Source: a virus. From it: 25,144 bases of DNA. Under the pieces are notes generated by a model. The model worked only from the letters and a program-made list of their open reading frames with translations, searched no databases and was not told the DNA's origin. Position 1 is the stretch's first letter; every line of letters starts with the position of its first letter. The position numbers were made by a program, and so were the translations under genes. The DNA is taken from positions 1 to 25,144 of IMG/VR virus record IMGVR_UViG_3300030110_000119. The stretch is one strand, 5' to 3'. Shown piece after piece: positions 3,657 through 20,892 of the stretch.

Positions 3657-4666
3657 GCGTTTTTAATTCCGATAACAGCCGCATTAGCCAAACCATTCTT
3701 GGCGCGTAGACCGTATTCAGCCACCATCAACTGCTTCACGCTGTCGCCAGTCTTGGCAAGGGTTTCGGTCATAAAGGGCCGTAGATAGTCAATTGACCAG
3801 AAATCATAGTCAAAGAAGTACAACTGGTTAGGCAGACACAGACGGCTAGGCACAATCTTCAGCGTACCAAAATCAGTCACCAAAACATCAATGGCGTTGA
3901 TAGCGGTAGCAGGAGCCGCACCCGGCGCTTCTTTCTGAAGGTCAGCAATAACCGAGCCACCAAGCGAACTAATTTTCTGCTTGAGTGAAGCATCGCACAT
4001 GAGGTCGGTAGGTTCACCACCGTTATCAAAGCAACGCTCCATAGCGAGGTTAATCATTGCCATCGTTAGAACTGCATCAGAACCCGAAGGACTTGCTACA
4101 GACGATCCGTTAGGAAAACCAGCGGTAGGCGAGCCTTGGTTGACAATACCAACAACAGGAGAGGCCGAACCATCAATAATGTTTGACGTTCCTGCGGCGG
4201 CAGTACCAAGCCAAGACATTACAGCCGCTGTTTTACGAACCGTAGTTGTGTTACCATCAACCTTAAGGTCTTCAGAAAGCATCATCTTTTCCATATCGCG
4301 CTTAATTTCTTTTGCGCGTTTAGCAAGTTGATACGCCTGACTTGACTTGCGGCCTGCAAAATCTACAGCCTCTGCCGTTCCTGATGTTTGTACCGCTTTG
4401 TACGAAATCTGAGTACGGTTCTGCAAACGTCGAGGCTCTGCAACTGCTAGAGCATCCATGTTATTATCACCCTCTAATTTCTGGTTAGCGGCGGCGGCGG
4501 CGAGTTCATCAGTCTGCCACTCAAACAACGTGTTGTCACAAGACCCTTTGCCCACGCTTGACATAAACGGCGTGTCCATCGGGCTAATATTATAAATGAT
4601 ATTACTTAGGTCTTCTCTAATGCCTACGGCACTAAAAGTAGTCCTAGTATTTGCTGCAATTGCCAT
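3653..4666 (-). CDS. Major capsid protein (SU10/DUF5309 type)
   Basis: The 337-aa protein forms the capsid shell. Its N-terminus has IREDLSNIIYNISPMDTPFM then SSVGKGSCDNTLFEWQTDEL, the signature opening of the DUF5309/SU10 major head protein family (HK97 fold). A long helix follows (AYQLAKRAKEIKRDMEKMML), corresponding to the spine region, and the C-terminal part contains NQLYFFDYDFWSIDYLRPF and AEYGLRAKNGLANAAVIG. Length is normal for the family. A strong AAAGGAG ribosome site lies 6 bases before the ATG, as expected for a highly made protein. Scaffold lies directly upstream in the transcript. Confidence 0.92.
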   Translation of the reverse strand: MAIAANTRTTFSAVGIREDLSNIIYNISPMDTPFMSSVGKGSCDNTLFEWQTDELAAAAANQKLEGDNNMDALAVAEPRRLQNRTQISYKAVQTSGTAEAVDFAGRKSSQAYQLAKRAKEIKRDMEKMMLSEDLKVDGNTTTVRKTAAVMSWLGTAAAGTSNIIDGSASPVVGIVNQGSPTAGFPNGSSVASPSGSDAVLTMAMINLAMERCFDNGGEPTDLMCDASLKQKISSLGGSVIADLQKEAPGAAPATAINAIDVLVTDFGTLKIVPSRLCLPNQLYFFDYDFWSIDYLRPFMTETLAKTGDSVKQLMVAEYGLRAKNGLANAAVIGIKNA

Positions 4667-5970: not shown

Positions 5971-7907
5971 GTTGCTCCTATTGCTACAGCCCTTTTCTGT
6001 TCTCGTTCAAGGGCTAGTTCTTCGGCTTTAAGTTGGGCATCTACAGCGGCTTCTTGTGCGTCCTGCTGGACTTTCATCATTTTAACTTGTAAATCGCCTT
6101 GTTTTATTTCCAACTCTTTCATTTTAATCTGTTGTTCCATCATAGCCGTTTGCTGTTCTGGGTTAGGCTGTTCAGGTTGCGGAGGCGGGGGAGGTGTTAA
6201 GAAATCATTAACATTCTGATAGCCCATTGCCTTTATAAGTGCGGCCCCAAGATTGTACATATTTTGCGGAGTTACAATAGGTAATCCACCAGACATAGCC
6301 TGTCCTGCAAACTGCAACATCTGTGACAGGTGAGCCATTTGCTGATCCTTTGAGCCATTTCCAAGAGCAACAGAAACAGTGCAATCCATCTTATCGCTCC
6401 ACATATCAGGGCGTACAGGAACCCACTCATTACGCAACATAACCACTCGCTCTTTATCCTGATATTTAAGCAGAAGTTCATAAATATAATTCATCAATTC
6501 TTTAACGCCAGTTTCTGCAAACTGTCTTGCAATCATTTCCACTCTTGACTGGGCGTTAGTCATCACAGCATTAACAGCGGTAGCCGTAGTGTGTGACGTT
6601 AAAGCATCTGCATTAATCCCTTGAGTGTTTTTGTTTACTCCTGATCTTGATTCCCTTACCTCATCAAGATATCCTAGCATCTGGAATGAGTAAGGCTCAA
6701 GGGGAGGGGTAGCCAAGGGCGTAACAGCATTAGGGGATTTAACCCGAACCACGCCCCCCGGCCTCTGGGTTAGGAGGTCATCTAAATTCGCTTGACCTTC
6801 AAGAACTGCATATCTACCAAAGTTCTGGTTGTAGGCGTTGTCCATCAGGTTACGCATTAGCGTACTCTTGATTAACTGTAAGTCCATTACGAGGTCTGCA
6901 ACTGACAACCCAAAAAACTTATGTGGAATTTTTAGCGGGGTAATAGAAACAAACGGAGTGTAATCAATTTCTTCGTTAGAAAAAACGTAATCACCGACAG
7001 TGCAAACTTTTCTTAATTCTGCAATTCCATCTTCATCAAAGTCTGTTCTAAGAAATGATTCGTGTAGATAATATTCTCTTAGTGCTTCTTCTTCGCCTCC
7101 GTTGAATACTCCGGCCATACTATCTGAATTATCAAACTGATAACGGGCTAAACGCTCTTCGTTGAAATCCATCATGTTATCGCCGCCGCCCAAGTCCTCA
7201 ACACCAAAGTCATCATCGGGGTACATTATGCGAAGTTCTGATAAAGTCTTTTTTACTCTATGACAAACAAACCTAGCATCTTTGATTGACTTTGCTTCTC
7301 TGGAAATTAAGAATTCTTCGGGGGGTACATTCTCTATACGAACTCTTCCATCATAATTACTACGCTTGATAACAACGTCATGGTACATACCTTCCGGCCC
7401 TTCAACTGCGGTATGCTCAAGAACCTCTACGTCATCACCTGAGATTAAATATTCAAACTCAAGGTCGCCAAGATTTTGATATTCTTCTCTTTTGGCTTCT
7501 TCGTATTCATCCCACCACACTTTTACAATACCGTTCTTTTGTAAAAGCGCATCATGGAACCAAGAATAAAGAACCTCCCAGCCCGAATTATCTTTTGTAA
7601 AGACGTAGTTGACGTAATCCGTGGCCTGTTTTGCCGCTTCTACGTCTTCCGGGCCGTGAGGTGTAAACTTAACCATCTCATCACCAGAGGCAAATACTCG
7701 CATTAAAGACGGTTTAATCCATTCAATTGTATCCTGAACAGTGGAATCAACGTATTGACTGCGGCCCTCTACCTCGTTACCAAAGGGCAACGCATAGTAA
7801 TATTCCTGAGCCTTTTCCCGCTGTTCCGATATCTCTCCATCATACCCAAGAGAGCCTGTAATCTCTCCTTGAATTCGTGATATCAGTTCTCGTTCTTTAT
7901 CAGACAA
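5967..7907 (-). CDS. Portal protein (SU10-like)
   Basis: This 646-aa protein would form the dodecameric channel through which DNA enters and leaves the head, and on which the terminase docks. Family-typical parts are EISEQREKAQEYYYALPFGN, EGRSQYVDSTVQDTIEWIKP with the following SLMRVFAS, and NYDGRVRIENVPPEEFLISR. Also visible are LKIPHKFFGLSVADLVMDLQ (stem region) and SRSGVNKNTQGINADAL. The C-terminus is a long Gln/Glu-rich helix after a PPPPP run near residue 560, matching the barrel/crown region. Translation appears to begin at TTG with an AGGA site 8-9 bases upstream and overlaps the TerL stop by 8 bases; there is no usable ATG nearby in frame. Confidence 0.92.
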   Translation of the reverse strand: MSDKERELISRIQGEITGSLGYDGEISEQREKAQEYYYALPFGNEVEGRSQYVDSTVQDTIEWIKPSLMRVFASGDEMVKFTPHGPEDVEAAKQATDYVNYVFTKDNSGWEVLYSWFHDALLQKNGIVKVWWDEYEEAKREEYQNLGDLEFEYLISGDDVEVLEHTAVEGPEGMYHDVVIKRSNYDGRVRIENVPPEEFLISREAKSIKDARFVCHRVKKTLSELRIMYPDDDFGVEDLGGGDNMMDFNEERLARYQFDNSDSMAGVFNGGEEEALREYYLHESFLRTDFDEDGIAELRKVCTVGDYVFSNEEIDYTPFVSITPLKIPHKFFGLSVADLVMDLQLIKSTLMRNLMDNAYNQNFGRYAVLEGQANLDDLLTQRPGGVVRVKSPNAVTPLATPPLEPYSFQMLGYLDEVRESRSGVNKNTQGINADALTSHTTATAVNAVMTNAQSRVEMIARQFAETGVKELMNYIYELLLKYQDKERVVMLRNEWVPVRPDMWSDKMDCTVSVALGNGSKDQQMAHLSQMLQFAGQAMSGGLPIVTPQNMYNLGAALIKAMGYQNVNDFLTPPPPPQPEQPNPEQQTAMMEQQIKMKELEIKQGDLQVKMMKVQQDAQEAAVDAQLKAEELALEREQKRAVAIGAT

Positions 7908-9351
7908 TTCCGTAATTCCTATAAGTTATGTCGCTAGTCCATTCGGGGTCAGTTCCCGCTATGGCATAGCGTTGTGATTGGAAGGCGTATCGTGTTGCGC
8001 TCATTAAGTCATCACGGAGGGCTACTACTTTACCTTCCTTTCTGTGGTACATTCTAAACTCTTCAAACCAATCAGACAGGGTAGAGAATACCTTAAAGTT
8101 TCCATTCTCCATGCTTTGTAGCATAGCCATAAGCCCCTCCTCTACTGAGTTAGAGCCTTTCTTTTCCCCTAACCCGGGAGGATTAGTAAAGTGCTGTAAT
8201 AGAAAGTTACACCCATGACCCCTATACTGTTCAGCAAGACCGGGGTTTCCCATGCTATCCCTGCGATTTCCGTCATGCGGGTAGGCTATCGGAATGAAAT
8301 AAGGGCGTTGCCTTATCACCTCGGAGTGTACCGTGGGGCTTGCCTTGGATGCTCTATAGCAATCATATATGTAGAAAGTATCACTTTCATTATCTATTGC
8401 ACACCAGACAACAGCCGTGGGATGATCCCAACCAAAATCTATGGCGGCTATGCGCGGCCAATGATCCTGTATTTCTATTGGATCAATCATTAAATCTTCT
8501 TCGTTCAATGGGAAGATTAAGCCAGAGCCTATAGAAGGTCTGCCAAACCTACGCATCTCCCTTTCATGGGGGGAGTAAGCAGACAGGATTTGCTCCATTG
8601 CTTCTTCAGAAAGATGTCCCTTCTTCCCATTCATGGACTTTACGTGTTCTGAGGCATGATCCCATGTAGCGTTTGTTAGGCTTTGCCCCCTCTTTATTTG
8701 GTTCATAAAGGCGGCAACTGTTTCAGTCATGCCTGATTCAGGGGTAAATGTCATGTAGACCATTCCTCTCCTGTCTAGGGTTCGCGTTACGCTCTGTGAG
8801 TACAGTTCTCTGGATGGTTCTTCATCCAACCATACCACATCTACCGATCTACCCTGCCACTTGTCTACGCCCATTTCATAGGCTTTAAAGTGTAAAGAAG
8901 AGTTCTCACCGGAAGTATGCCGTATTAGGGCTACGGACTTGGCGTTTGGAACTCCGGGCTTGCGTTCAGTTTTTATAATACATTCTCTAGGAACAGCGCC
9001 GGAGCCAAAGGCTTCTGGATCATCGGGAGAACCCAATAACTCTGCTTGTACAATATCTCTTGTGGTTTCGTTTGACACACCACCGGCCCATGCTGTAATG
9101 GGCCTGTTAAATCTTCTACCCCTCCACCATTTAGGATATAGTCCTGTAAGGTGGTAGGCCATCTCTGCGGCCCCACAATAAGACTTTCCTATACGGTTAG
9201 CCGCCATCAATAAGCGTTGGTTATTACCTACCCCTGTTTCGTGGAATTCCTGTTGGTATGGGTACGGATCGTAGAAGTCGATCTTGTTGTATCTTTCGCG
9301 CTTCCTTAACTCTTTTGCTATCTGGATAGCCGCTTCAATGTTTTGTTCCAA
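7900..9351 (-). CDS. terL: Large terminase subunit
   Basis: The 483-aa packaging motor. The ATPase domain has Walker A AANRIGKS (50-57), Walker B VVWLDEE (172-178) and a coupling motif MTFTPESG (200-207). The nuclease domain (RNase H-like) has acidic residues in AAIDFGWDHP (D305), IAYPHDG (D360) and LRDDLMSATRYA (D447/D448). All catalytic elements look intact, so the enzyme should be active. The start is TTG with a GAGG site 6 bases upstream, overlapping the end of TerS. It lies directly upstream of the portal, the usual order. Confidence 0.95.
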   Translation of the reverse strand: MEQNIEAAIQIAKELRKRERYNKIDFYDPYPYQQEFHETGVGNNQRLLMAANRIGKSYCGAAEMAYHLTGLYPKWWRGRRFNRPITAWAGGVSNETTRDIVQAELLGSPDDPEAFGSGAVPRECIIKTERKPGVPNAKSVALIRHTSGENSSLHFKAYEMGVDKWQGRSVDVVWLDEEPSRELYSQSVTRTLDRRGMVYMTFTPESGMTETVAAFMNQIKRGQSLTNATWDHASEHVKSMNGKKGHLSEEAMEQILSAYSPHEREMRRFGRPSIGSGLIFPLNEEDLMIDPIEIQDHWPRIAAIDFGWDHPTAVVWCAIDNESDTFYIYDCYRASKASPTVHSEVIRQRPYFIPIAYPHDGNRRDSMGNPGLAEQYRGHGCNFLLQHFTNPPGLGEKKGSNSVEEGLMAMLQSMENGNFKVFSTLSDWFEEFRMYHRKEGKVVALRDDLMSATRYAFQSQRYAIAGTDPEWTSDITYRNYGIV

Positions 9352-12164: not shown

Positions 12165-12470
12165 ATGCACCCAATCGAAAGAGAAATAGCCTCACGTATC
12201 ATCAACGCAGTCCTGAGCGAAAAGGGCCACACAATCTCAGTATTTGACGGTGAAGAAACCGTTGTGAGCAAATCAGACGATGCCAAAAGAATACTGAATG
12301 AGATGTGCCAGACAGATGATGGTGATGTCCTCTTCATAAATCATGGTCAGGAAGACATTGGCGCGGTATATTTTTGCTACGGTAACGAACCGGAGTATGT
12401 TGTCGCTGATTACAGTGCAGACAAATTCACTTCAAGAATTGTCGAAACCGTGACGATGGATTACGACTAA
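12165..12470 (+). CDS. Early hypothetical protein, 101 aa
   Basis: An acidic soluble protein with an N-terminal helix (MHPIEREIASRIINAVLSEK), a short strand with ISVFDGEETVVSKSDD, and a C-terminal alpha/beta part (DGDVLFINHGQE, GAVYFCYGNEPEYVVADYS). The 'H-P-I-E-R-E-I-x-x-R-I-I' opening and '[YF]-G-N-x-x-x-x-V-x-x-D-Y' close match small phage and plasmid proteins I have seen without known function. AAGGA lies 7 bases before the ATG. It is the first gene downstream of the divergent region and is followed by a strong hairpin, so its expression may be separable from the next gene. Confidence 0.72.
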   Translation: MHPIEREIASRIINAVLSEKGHTISVFDGEETVVSKSDDAKRILNEMCQTDDGDVLFINHGQEDIGAVYFCYGNEPEYVVADYSADKFTSRIVETVTMDYD

Positions 12471-12481
12471 TCACCAATTTC

Positions 12482-12521
12482 AATCAACCTACGAACCCCG
12501 GTCTATCCGGGGTTTTCGGGT
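12482..12521 (+). terminator. Hairpin module A (weak terminator or attenuator)
   Basis: AACCCCGG (12494-12501) pairs with CCGGGGTT (12507-12514) around a 5-base loop TCTAT, followed by TTTC. Flanks AATCAACCT (12482-12490) and TTTCGGGT (12514-12521) recur at the same spacing in a second module 542 bases downstream. The U tract is short (about 4), so this could be a partial terminator or an mRNA-stabilising hairpin between two co-directional genes. Confidence 0.7.
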
Positions 12522-12545
12522 AAACAAACCATAGGAACCAAGACC

Positions 12546-13013
12546 ATGAAAAGATCACAAGTGTACTTTAACCTTCACAAAAGTTGTTTCAGCGTCCAAC
12601 AGGGCGGGAAAGTGTACGCCCACGCCGATGGTGTACTCCTTGAGAATGTCCGGTTTAACGTATCCAAAGCAGGACAGCGAAAGGTTCGGGAAACAAGGCG
12701 AAAGAATGTACACGCTAGGGTTTCAGGTTATCCCGCGCCCAGTATTGGATCAAACCATAATGCCCACGAAATTCATTACGGGGAAGATGCTAATACAGTA
12801 ATATTAAGCCCTCAATTGGTCAAATTCTGCCGTGAGGATATCGAATCACTGAAAGCGGTAGGATGGCATACGGCAACGTATAACCCCTATAAGAATGATA
12901 CCTTCATTGATGCCGTCACTGGCGGGGAATTACATGATGCCAGAAAGGTTCTAATGTTTACCCGCAACAATGCAGGCCCAGTGATACTTTACAAGCCTAC
13001 CCTATCCGGCTAG
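12546..13013 (+). CDS. Early phage protein, 155 aa, 'RRKNVHA' family
   Basis: The N-terminus reads SQVYFNLHKSCFSVQQGGKV and is followed by a basic segment KAGQRKVRETRRKNVHARVS. Proteins of this form, with a strand 'Y-x-N-L-H-K-x-x-x-S-V' and then 'V-R-x-x-x-R-K-N-V-H-A', occur in early regions of many T7-like and marine phages; the function is unknown. The C-terminal part has HTATYNPYKNDTFIDAVTG and ends ILYKPTLSG. The basic surface suggests nucleic-acid contact, which is only inference. AGGA precedes the ATG by 8 bases, after hairpin module A. Confidence 0.75.
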   Translation: MKRSQVYFNLHKSCFSVQQGGKVYAHADGVLLENVRFNVSKAGQRKVRETRRKNVHARVSGYPAPSIGSNHNAHEIHYGEDANTVILSPQLVKFCREDIESLKAVGWHTATYNPYKNDTFIDAVTGGELHDARKVLMFTRNNAGPVILYKPTLSG

Positions 13014-13023
13014 ACTAGCCATT

Positions 13024-13063
13024 AATCAACCTGAGCGCCCCGCTAAATGTGGGGCTTTCGGGT
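13024..13063 (+). terminator. Hairpin module B (weak terminator or attenuator)
   Basis: GCCCCGC (13037-13043) pairs with GTGGGGC (13049-13055, one G-U pair) around a 5-base loop TAAAT, then TTTC. Its flanks AATCAACCT and TTTCGGGT are identical in sequence and spacing (32 bases start to start) to those of module A, while the stem sequence differs but still pairs. Confidence 0.7.
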
Positions 13064-13089
13064 GCAACCACAACAAAGGAAAAAGCAAA

Positions 13090-13785
13090 ATGAAACTACT
13101 TGATACGGCAGGCGGTAACCCCAAACTGAAAAAGAATAATCTTGATAAAACATTGCGTGTTGCTGGTTTATCCCTATTGCCTAATAAAAAGGGATGCCCA
13201 TTTATGGATATTGCCGGGTGTGGCGAATCATGCTTAAGGTTTTCGGGCCGGGGAAATTTTCAGAATGTGGTGGATTCTCGCCAGTCTAAACTTGATTATC
13301 TGAATTCTGACCGTGCCGGATTTATTGCTGATCTAGTAGCAGAACTAAAAACCTTCTCAAAATACTGTGCCAAACGTGGTTTGCAGGGTTATGTCCGTTT
13401 GAACGTCCTATCTGATTACCCATGGCATACCGAAGCATACGGCGCTATCCCGCAACGATTCCCAGAATTAAGGTTCTACGACTACACTAAAGTAGCATCC
13501 AGATTGGGGAATACGCCAGAAAACTATCAGTTGATGTTTTCCTACAGCCCTGCTATCGCATATCAGAAAAGCGTAGCATTGGCTCTTAAAACTGACCAAC
13601 CCATGAGCGTAGTCTTTAACGGCGATATGCCGACTGAATTCTTAGGCCGTAAGGTTTACGATGGCGACAAATCTGATATCGACAATCTGACCCGCAAGGG
13701 CGCTATCGTAGGACTGAAATATAAACTCGCGAAGGGTCAATCTATAGATCCACTAGACTCTAAATTCATTGTGACGGTAAAGTAA
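13090..13785 (+). CDS. Gp88-like/DUF7227-type phage protein, 231 aa
   Basis: The start (GGNPKLKKNN, RVAGLSLLPNKKG) and a cysteine motif (CPFMDIAGCGESCLRFSGRG; C36, C44, C48) match a phage and plasmid family annotated as 'gene product 88' or DUF7227. The pattern there is 'L-s-L-x-P-x-x-x-x-C-P-x-A-x-x-x-C-x-x-x-C-L-x-x-x-G-R-G'. A KLDYLNSDRAGFIADLVAEL helix and YVRLNVLSDYPWH follow. The invariant cysteines suggest metal or Fe-S binding, but the activity is unknown. It has an AAAGGA site, follows hairpin module B and is closed by a strong terminator. Family naming is from memory of the motif. Confidence 0.75.
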   Translation: MKLLDTAGGNPKLKKNNLDKTLRVAGLSLLPNKKGCPFMDIAGCGESCLRFSGRGNFQNVVDSRQSKLDYLNSDRAGFIADLVAELKTFSKYCAKRGLQGYVRLNVLSDYPWHTEAYGAIPQRFPELRFYDYTKVASRLGNTPENYQLMFSYSPAIAYQKSVALALKTDQPMSVVFNGDMPTEFLGRKVYDGDKSDIDNLTRKGAIVGLKYKLAKGQSIDPLDSKFIVTVK

Positions 13786-13812
13786 CTAAACCATAAACCA
13801 ATCTTATTATTG

Positions 13813-13839
13813 ACCCGCCTATAATGGGCGGGTTTTTTT
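13813..13839 (+). terminator. Intrinsic terminator after the Gp88-like gene
   Basis: ACCCGCC (13813-13819) pairs with GGCGGGT (13827-13833) around a 7-base loop and is followed directly by a run of seven T. This is a classical rho-independent terminator that closes the first plus-strand transcription unit. Confidence 0.9.
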
Positions 13840-13901
13840 ATGCGTGGACGATAACGGTAGAACACGCCTTGCAAGGCCCTCAGTTGGCCTGCACGGCCTG
13901 A

Positions 13902-15199: not shown

Positions 15200-15372
15200 T
15201 GAGCGGTGCAAACTTAGATGGTTATAATTATGCTTGGAAAAAATCAACCCTCAAGTCTGATCTTGAAAAAAGGGTTGACAAACTGGAAGAAGGTATGCGA
15301 CAATTGGTTGCAGTGTTAGCACTAATGAATCAAACAATGGATCAACTAGAGGAAAAAGAAAATGCTGACTAA
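15199..15372 (+). CDS. Small coiled-coil protein, 57 aa
   Basis: The ATG overlaps the previous stop as TAATG, so I start here and not at the earlier in-frame ATG 15172. The N-terminus is MSGANLDGYNYAWKKS and the remainder is a heptad-patterned helix (LKSDLEKRVDKLEEGMRQLV, LALMNQTMDQLEEKE). It would form a short coiled-coil dimer or trimer. No function is recognised. The 3' end overlaps the next small gene by 11 bases. Confidence 0.65.
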   Translation: MSGANLDGYNYAWKKSTLKSDLEKRVDKLEEGMRQLVAVLALMNQTMDQLEEKENAD

Positions 15373-20612: not shown

Positions 20613-20892
20613 GAGAATAAAGAGCAAGCCTTACCTTGAGTGGGTAGCCACACTGCCATGTGCCGCTTGTGAAATAAGGGATGGTACAGTTGTGGCTCAC
20701 CACTGGAAAGGCGAGGGTGGTCATTTGTCAGGGGGTATGGGATTGAAGGCTAGCGACTGGTTGACTATGCCGCTTTGTCATAAATGCCACAGTCAGATGC
20801 ACTCAGGCGATGCCGCCCTTATAAGTTGGCAAAGAGAATATATTTTAAGAACGCTTGACATTGCATTTAATTCAGGTATAATAGAGTTATGA
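20593..20892 (+). CDS. HNH-type zinc nuclease (DUF968/Ref-like), 99 aa
   Basis: A compact metal-binding protein. LPCAACEIRDGTVVAHHWKG gives C23, C26 and H36-H37, and PLCHKCHSQMHSGD gives C62, C65, H66 and H70. The conserved GLKASDWLTMPLC segment is typical of DUF968 and Ref-like HNH nucleases. It would nick or cut DNA, possibly at recombination intermediates. It overlaps the DUF3310 gene by 20 bases and contains a perfect-consensus promoter near its end. Close relatives are often placed in phage recombination regions. Confidence 0.82.
   Translation: MSLQKRKRIKSKPYLEWVATLPCAACEIRDGTVVAHHWKGEGGHLSGGMGLKASDWLTMPLCHKCHSQMHSGDAALISWQREYILRTLDIAFNSGIIEL
20855..20882 (+). promoter_or_regulatory. 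Embedded consensus sigma70 promoter, possible leaderless start
   Basis: TTGACA (20855-20860), a 16-base spacer and TATAAT (20877-20882) match consensus 12/12. The expected start is at about base 20889, which is the first base of the next gene's ATG, so the message may have no leader. The genes from 21228 on, with their own AGGAG sites, would also be driven. Confidence 0.78.

Follow-up and report, generated by a model that had tools for sequence, protein, structure and literature searches.

RNase III processing hairpins occur between early genes of T7-like phages. Repeated elements of another kind, the start-associated (SAS) and extended start-associated (ESAS) sequences, have been described in cluster K mycobacteriophages, where SAS is a 13-bp sequence, GGGATAGGAGCCC, adjoining the start codon, and ESAS consists of 17-bp imperfect inverted repeats with a variable spacer (~4-14 bp) and a putative SigA promoter (PMC3203893, PMC11373665). 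Short conserved boundary sequences have in turn been proposed as a mechanism of phage mosaicism (PMC3029335). The hairpin modules analyzed here share traits with all three. SAS/ESAS are the nearest in kind, as both are repeated intergenic inverted repeats located just ahead of the starts of a subset of non-structural genes (PMC3203893, PMC11373665), but the modules are not SAS/ESAS: they have a 7-9 bp stem, a 3-4 bp clamp, a loop of 4-6 nt, a U-tract, and the upstream stop codon always at about the same distance. The 17-bp imperfect inverted repeats of ESAS are absent from the modules, and inspection in full of all the leaders found the 13-bp sequence next to the start in none of them. The T7-like RNase III hairpins are likewise intercistronic and belong to a phage early operon, whereas the modules have a shorter helix and strong sequence conservation at both ends. 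Boundary sequences at phage mosaic junctions are, like the modules, short, conserved and placed between exchangeable genes (PMC3029335), but the modules are a structured RNA in which the base changes are compensatory. A literature search, with subscription journals mostly outside it, found no published description of the element.

The window, that is, the whole stretch of DNA analyzed, is a virus record of 25,144 bases. It carries a leftward structural block that includes the terminase large subunit, an SU10-like portal and the major head protein, and a rightward block beginning near position 12165. Both modules occupy the two gaps between the first three genes of the rightward block, arranged as follows:

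12165-12470, plus strand: first gene of the block, 101 aa, function unknown, phrog_22565-like; stop codon at 12468-12470
12471-12481, plus strand: spacer of fixed length from stop codon to module 1, 11 nt
12482-12521, plus strand: hairpin module 1, with unpaired AATCA and clamp ACCT (12487-12490) pairing with GGGT (12518-12521)
12493-12501/12507-12515, plus strand: inner stem of module 1, loop at 12502-12506; U-tract TTTT at 12513-12516, partly in the stem
12522-12545, plus strand: A/C-rich leader after module 1, AGGA at 12533-12536; ATG at 12546
12546-13013, plus strand: second gene of the block, 155 aa, PF25735 L5 gp82-like; stop codon at 13011-13013
13014-13023, plus strand: spacer of fixed length from stop codon to module 2, 10 nt
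13024-13063, plus strand: hairpin module 2, with unpaired AATCA and clamp ACCTGAG (13029-13035) pairing with TTCGGGT (13057-13063)
13037-13043/13049-13055, plus strand: inner stem of module 2, loop at 13044-13048
13064-13089, plus strand: A/C-rich leader after module 2, AAGGA at 13076-13080; ATG at 13090
13090-13785, plus strand: third gene of the block, 231 aa, PF17338 GP88
13812-13839, plus strand: ordinary intrinsic terminator at the block end, 10-bp stem, T-run at 13833-13839; in-genome comparator for the modules

The initial annotation had described two end motifs at constant offset in both gaps, enclosing stems of different sequence. The motifs were found again as AATCAACCT (at 12482 and 13024) and TTTCGGGT (at 12514 and 13056), 32 nt apart start to start in both copies, and so were the stems, of 9 bp in module 1 (GAACCCCGG/CCGGGGTTT, 5-nt loop TCTAT) and 7 bp in module 2 (GCCCCGC/GTGGGGC, 5-nt loop TAAAT), together with the short U tract of 3-4 nt in both. 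An outer clamp, ACCY...RGGU, which closes the hairpin, had been missed: in the window, the first motif contributes ACCU and the second GGGU to this pairing, and because the end motifs partly pair with each other the hairpin is longer than had been seen, with a whole helix of ~15 bp, internal mismatch included. Folding of the sense strand gave -20.5 and -24.4 kcal/mol per 40 nt (z about -3.4 and -4.9). The two-ended pattern matched both copies with 0 mismatches, compared to 0.17 matches expected from shuffles even with 3 mismatches allowed, which discards a chance origin of the two copies. None of 4227 Rfam models matched the window at the gathering threshold.

The covariance-model search of related phages that had been suggested was carried out with a model built from 13 copies, run on loci around the small terminase gene and also on whole contigs, and it yielded 27 distinct modules in related viral contigs. 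Clear matches scored at least 37 bits and noise at most 16 bits, with two divergent copies between them (27.6 and 20.7 bits). Pattern and protein searches found the full pattern in 12 viral contigs, all 12 folding at -20 kcal/mol or lower, and the whole-contig runs found two contigs of 38-40 kb with two modules each and a third with one, all at this same locus. No module was found in 84,980 prokaryote genomes, where the seven pattern matches lacked a fold (-0.7 to -8.8 kcal/mol) and were discarded as chance. A loose two-ended pattern likewise returned more than 100 viral matches, nearly all of them unfolded and due to chance. The cassette was absent from 50,697 phage records (blastn), and no module was found in the isolated phages Baldr, Vibrio 1.262.O, IME234, BroderSalsa and CRP-235, whose terminase or GP88 gene is similar, the weak model match in CRP-235 being an ordinary terminator. 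An unrelated contig (L138/G015) probably carries an ordinary terminator as well, with the stop codon 42 nt away; it was included in models A1/R1 and A3, which it diluted slightly. Relatives of the terminase and GP88 in Vibrio, Pelagibacter and Roseobacter phages point to a marine origin of the group.

Conservation of the structure was evaluated on the 27 distinct copies, in an alignment fitted to the model and composed of related copies, whose cells are not independent events. Standard pairs accounted for 90.2% of the paired cells, compared to 83.6% when shuffled and at most 60% when slid, and 26 cells had changed on both sides, compared to 10.3 in shuffles; the covariation score was 0.244 versus 0.136 for the control. 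Counted by pairs, any double change occurred in 4, which is not above the level of shuffles (3.2), and the covariation signal therefore rests on few positions. The window's own two copies already differ in this way: the stem tip (A3 columns 24-31) is C-G in one and G-C in the other, and the base (18-37) A-U versus G-C. On the sense strand, 52 cells were G-U versus 6 A-C, and the sense strand was more stable than the antisense in 24 of 25 copies, which argues for an RNA of the coding strand and not for a DNA palindrome. Two C-G pairs of the clamp are invariant; the pair after them may be U-G, C-G or U-A but is never unpaired. The three inner positions of ACCY/RGGU are paired in 26/26 cells each. 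These comparisons support the modules as a selected RNA element of one phage group. The structure with covariation in relatives postulated in the initial annotation thus gained further copies, compensatory changes and a large excess of G-U over A-C on the sense strand; for the sequence half of the check, both the copies and the covariation whose lack was to count against it are present. The modules make up an RNA element family: they match no Rfam model, show covariation, and keep a defined register both to the stop codon before them and to the start codon after them.

This register was a constant feature of the copies. In the window, modules 1 and 2 start 11 and 10 nt past the stop codon and end 24 and 26 nt ahead of the start codon. 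Among clade copies, 22 of 24 have the upstream stop 9-12 nt before the module (mostly 11), and this distance is kept even though spacer identity is only 49% and the genes on that side come from nine unrelated families. In the two exceptions the real stop lies at 19 or 28 nt, and an unused stop triplet is found at 11 and 10 nt; these relics imply that descent of the whole cassette contributes to the fixed spacing. On the downstream side, the module-to-start distance varies between 23 and 31 nt, with an A/C-rich leader. The repeat unit is therefore a stop-to-start cassette: stop codon, spacer of ~11 nt, hairpin, A/C-rich leader with Shine-Dalgarno, and start codon; this extent of the unit had also been missed in the initial annotation. 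The Shine-Dalgarno region is mostly unpaired (mean probability of being unpaired 0.62), and its sequestration by the CCU of the module was discarded, as a survey of the leaders by eye gave no consistent pattern.

Measured from the stop codon, the outer clamp starts at ~16 nt and the inner stem at ~22-24 nt, compared to 24-34 nt for the block-end terminators. In E. coli, terminator efficiency is about nil very near the stop codon, rises with distance and becomes maximal beyond about 27-30 nt (PMC4824070). As the stem of the modules falls within this range, a terminating ribosome could matter to them; these distances derive from E. coli and may not apply to the host of the phage.

The inner stem, with 7-9 bp, 5-7 G-C pairs and a loop mostly of 4-6 nt, is of the type that defines intrinsic terminators (GC-rich, at least 5 pairs, short loop), and at least 3 T follow it directly in all modules. 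The terminator at the block end has a similar stem with a long U-tract, whereas in the modules a U-tract of 3-5 is cut off by GGGU. A terminator scan requiring 5 T in 8 listed 13812-13834 and not the modules. Their T-tail scores were 3.6-4.2, versus 4.3-5.7 for eight block-end terminators, and a d'Aubenton-Carafa-type score, safe for relative use only, was positive for all modules (2-41, most 16-33) and mostly below that of the block ends (35-55). The modules resemble Rho-independent or partial intra-operon terminators in their GC-rich stem followed at once by T and in the position of the stem 22-24 nt after the stop, but they differ in that the U-tract is cut by GGGU, that clamp pairing is conserved beyond it, that a start codon lies within ~25 nt, and that one sequence is repeated between different genes. 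Both the tail and the combined scores would fit weak termination, and the clamp past the U-tract would fit a role in read-through RNA; the two can hold together.

The genes around the modules are reshuffled, a third point missed in the initial annotation. The 28 module sites are flanked by 13 families of upstream genes and 18 of downstream genes, in 23 combinations, with four families in both roles, one of which lies upstream of five others and also downstream. Among module pairs with a common neighbour family, 39 of 45 have just one of their two sides in common, the pattern of homology expected of a recombination boundary, and the module is ~85% identical; the leader tends to move together with the gene after it. 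This one-sided sharing between reshuffled neighbours indicates that the cassettes stand at exchange joints. The neighbour proteins are mostly of unknown function, with recurrent GP88-like and L5 gp82-like members, and the modules mark a variable gene locus adjoining the terminase genes which collects such small early proteins.

The initial annotation had suggested partial terminators, attenuators or mRNA-stability elements that set separate levels for each gene, a role that would suit the anatomy. We lean, tentatively, to the modules being intercistronic leaky-terminator cassettes between exchangeable early accessory genes, which would also act as joints for the exchange of these genes. The GC-rich inner stem with its 3-5 U would constitute a deliberately weak intrinsic terminator, at which part of the polymerases would stop after each gene, leaving a hairpin-protected 3' end, while the remaining ones would read on, producing stepped-down amounts of successive genes until the full terminator closes the block. 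As the fixed stop-to-stem distance would place the hairpin just past the terminating ribosome, how leaky the terminator is may depend on whether the upstream gene is translated, and in the RNA of polymerases that read through, the clamped hairpin would protect the following ribosome-binding site against influence of the upstream gene, allowing swapped genes to keep their expression context. The conserved structure, its position and spacing, the contrast with real terminators and the shuffling of genes are observations; partial termination, ribosome gating and insulation are inferred. Against the first, four U followed by GGG may give hardly any termination, and the bases of the GGGU clamp, being past the U-tract, would be untranscribed upon termination there, so that a pure terminator role does not explain the clamp pairing; the fixed spacing could come partly from descent of the whole cassette. 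If the leaky-terminator reading is true, the phage could swap accessory genes at one locus and yet keep dosage control, and the cassettes would be nature's equivalent of the insulated parts that synthetic biologists build for use between cistrons. An unlikely variant is that of a transferable stop-to-start cassette, in which the fixed stop distance would provide ribosome-dependent read-through and the conserved sequence would serve as a gene-swap joint with constant expression context.

The clamp, always paired at its three inner positions and existing only in read-through RNA, speaks for a hairpin that does not terminate and acts instead in processing, stability or insulation, as a nuclease barrier or cleavage site between cistrons that would protect the 3' end and leave the next ribosome-binding site free. 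The ~15 bp helix with an internal mismatch, the A/C-rich leaders and the mostly unpaired Shine-Dalgarno region would suit such a role, which we regard as possible although somewhat unlikely, as it leaves unexplained the constant run of at least 3 T right after the inner stem and ~15 bp is short for an RNase III site, these being typically longer. The reshuffling of neighbours around a module that is itself ~85% identical could also mean that the modules are kept mainly as homology joints for recombination of accessory genes, the hairpin being a by-product of an ancestral terminator. Boundary sequences have been proposed in phage mosaicism (PMC3029335), and this phage encodes a Rad52/Erf-like annealing protein and a PD-(D/E)XK exonuclease; recombination would however need identity, whereas the stems change compensatorily and the strand-asymmetric G-U use points to selection on RNA, which makes this explanation improbable.

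A further reading is that of a binding site for a phage or host RNA-binding protein, either a translational repressor or an antiterminator, with AAUCAACC, a UNNAU loop and UUUYGGGU as candidate determinants. In the first 13 copies, the single-stranded AAT (columns 1-3), A5 and loop positions T21, A24 and T25 are invariant, the last three having been imposed by the pattern used to retrieve most of these copies. In the wider set the loop varies in length (4-6 nt) and bases (TTTT, TTAATT) and no candidate protein was found, so we consider a protein site quite improbable. A promoter or DNA operator in place of an RNA element finds a precedent in the ESAS of cluster K mycobacteriophages, which are likewise upstream of starts and hold putative promoters (PMC11373665), but by eye there is no conserved -35/-10 pair within the module, and both covariation and strand-asymmetric G-U use oppose it, making it scarcely credible. 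Of these readings, the leaky-terminator cassette is tentatively favoured, followed by the processing or insulation hairpin.

Several further observations were made. The densest array was found on the minus strand of L175 (G011), positions 1-541, with two complete modules, a third one cut by the contig end and intervening genes of ~50 aa. A distant contig, G018 (locus L297), carries on its minus strand three cassettes of similar architecture (4062-4101, 7805-7843 and 8143-8185) with their own stem sequence, CCCCGTTAATTCGGGG; in two of them an additional small hairpin (TGCCAATCTTGGCA, TGCCACTCTTGGCA) precedes the Shine-Dalgarno, and the third has GCCAATAACGGC. Three further hairpins in the vicinity have the form ACCCGCTTNATTGCGGGT and then a clamp containing G. 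In the window, a non-coding stretch directly 3' of the block-end terminator (13840-13880, GTGGACGATAACGGTAGAACACGCCTTGCAAGG) recurs in most relatives whatever the terminator stem, and is possibly an origin or a further RNA element. A weak covariance-model match of 13 bits at 15242-15275 (AATCAACCCTCAAG...AAAAAAGGGT), found at the same place in several relatives, lies inside a reading frame or at its edge and is probably not a module. Finally, a perfect consensus promoter, TTGACA-16-TATAAT, is present at 20855-20882 near an ORF end in the rightward block.
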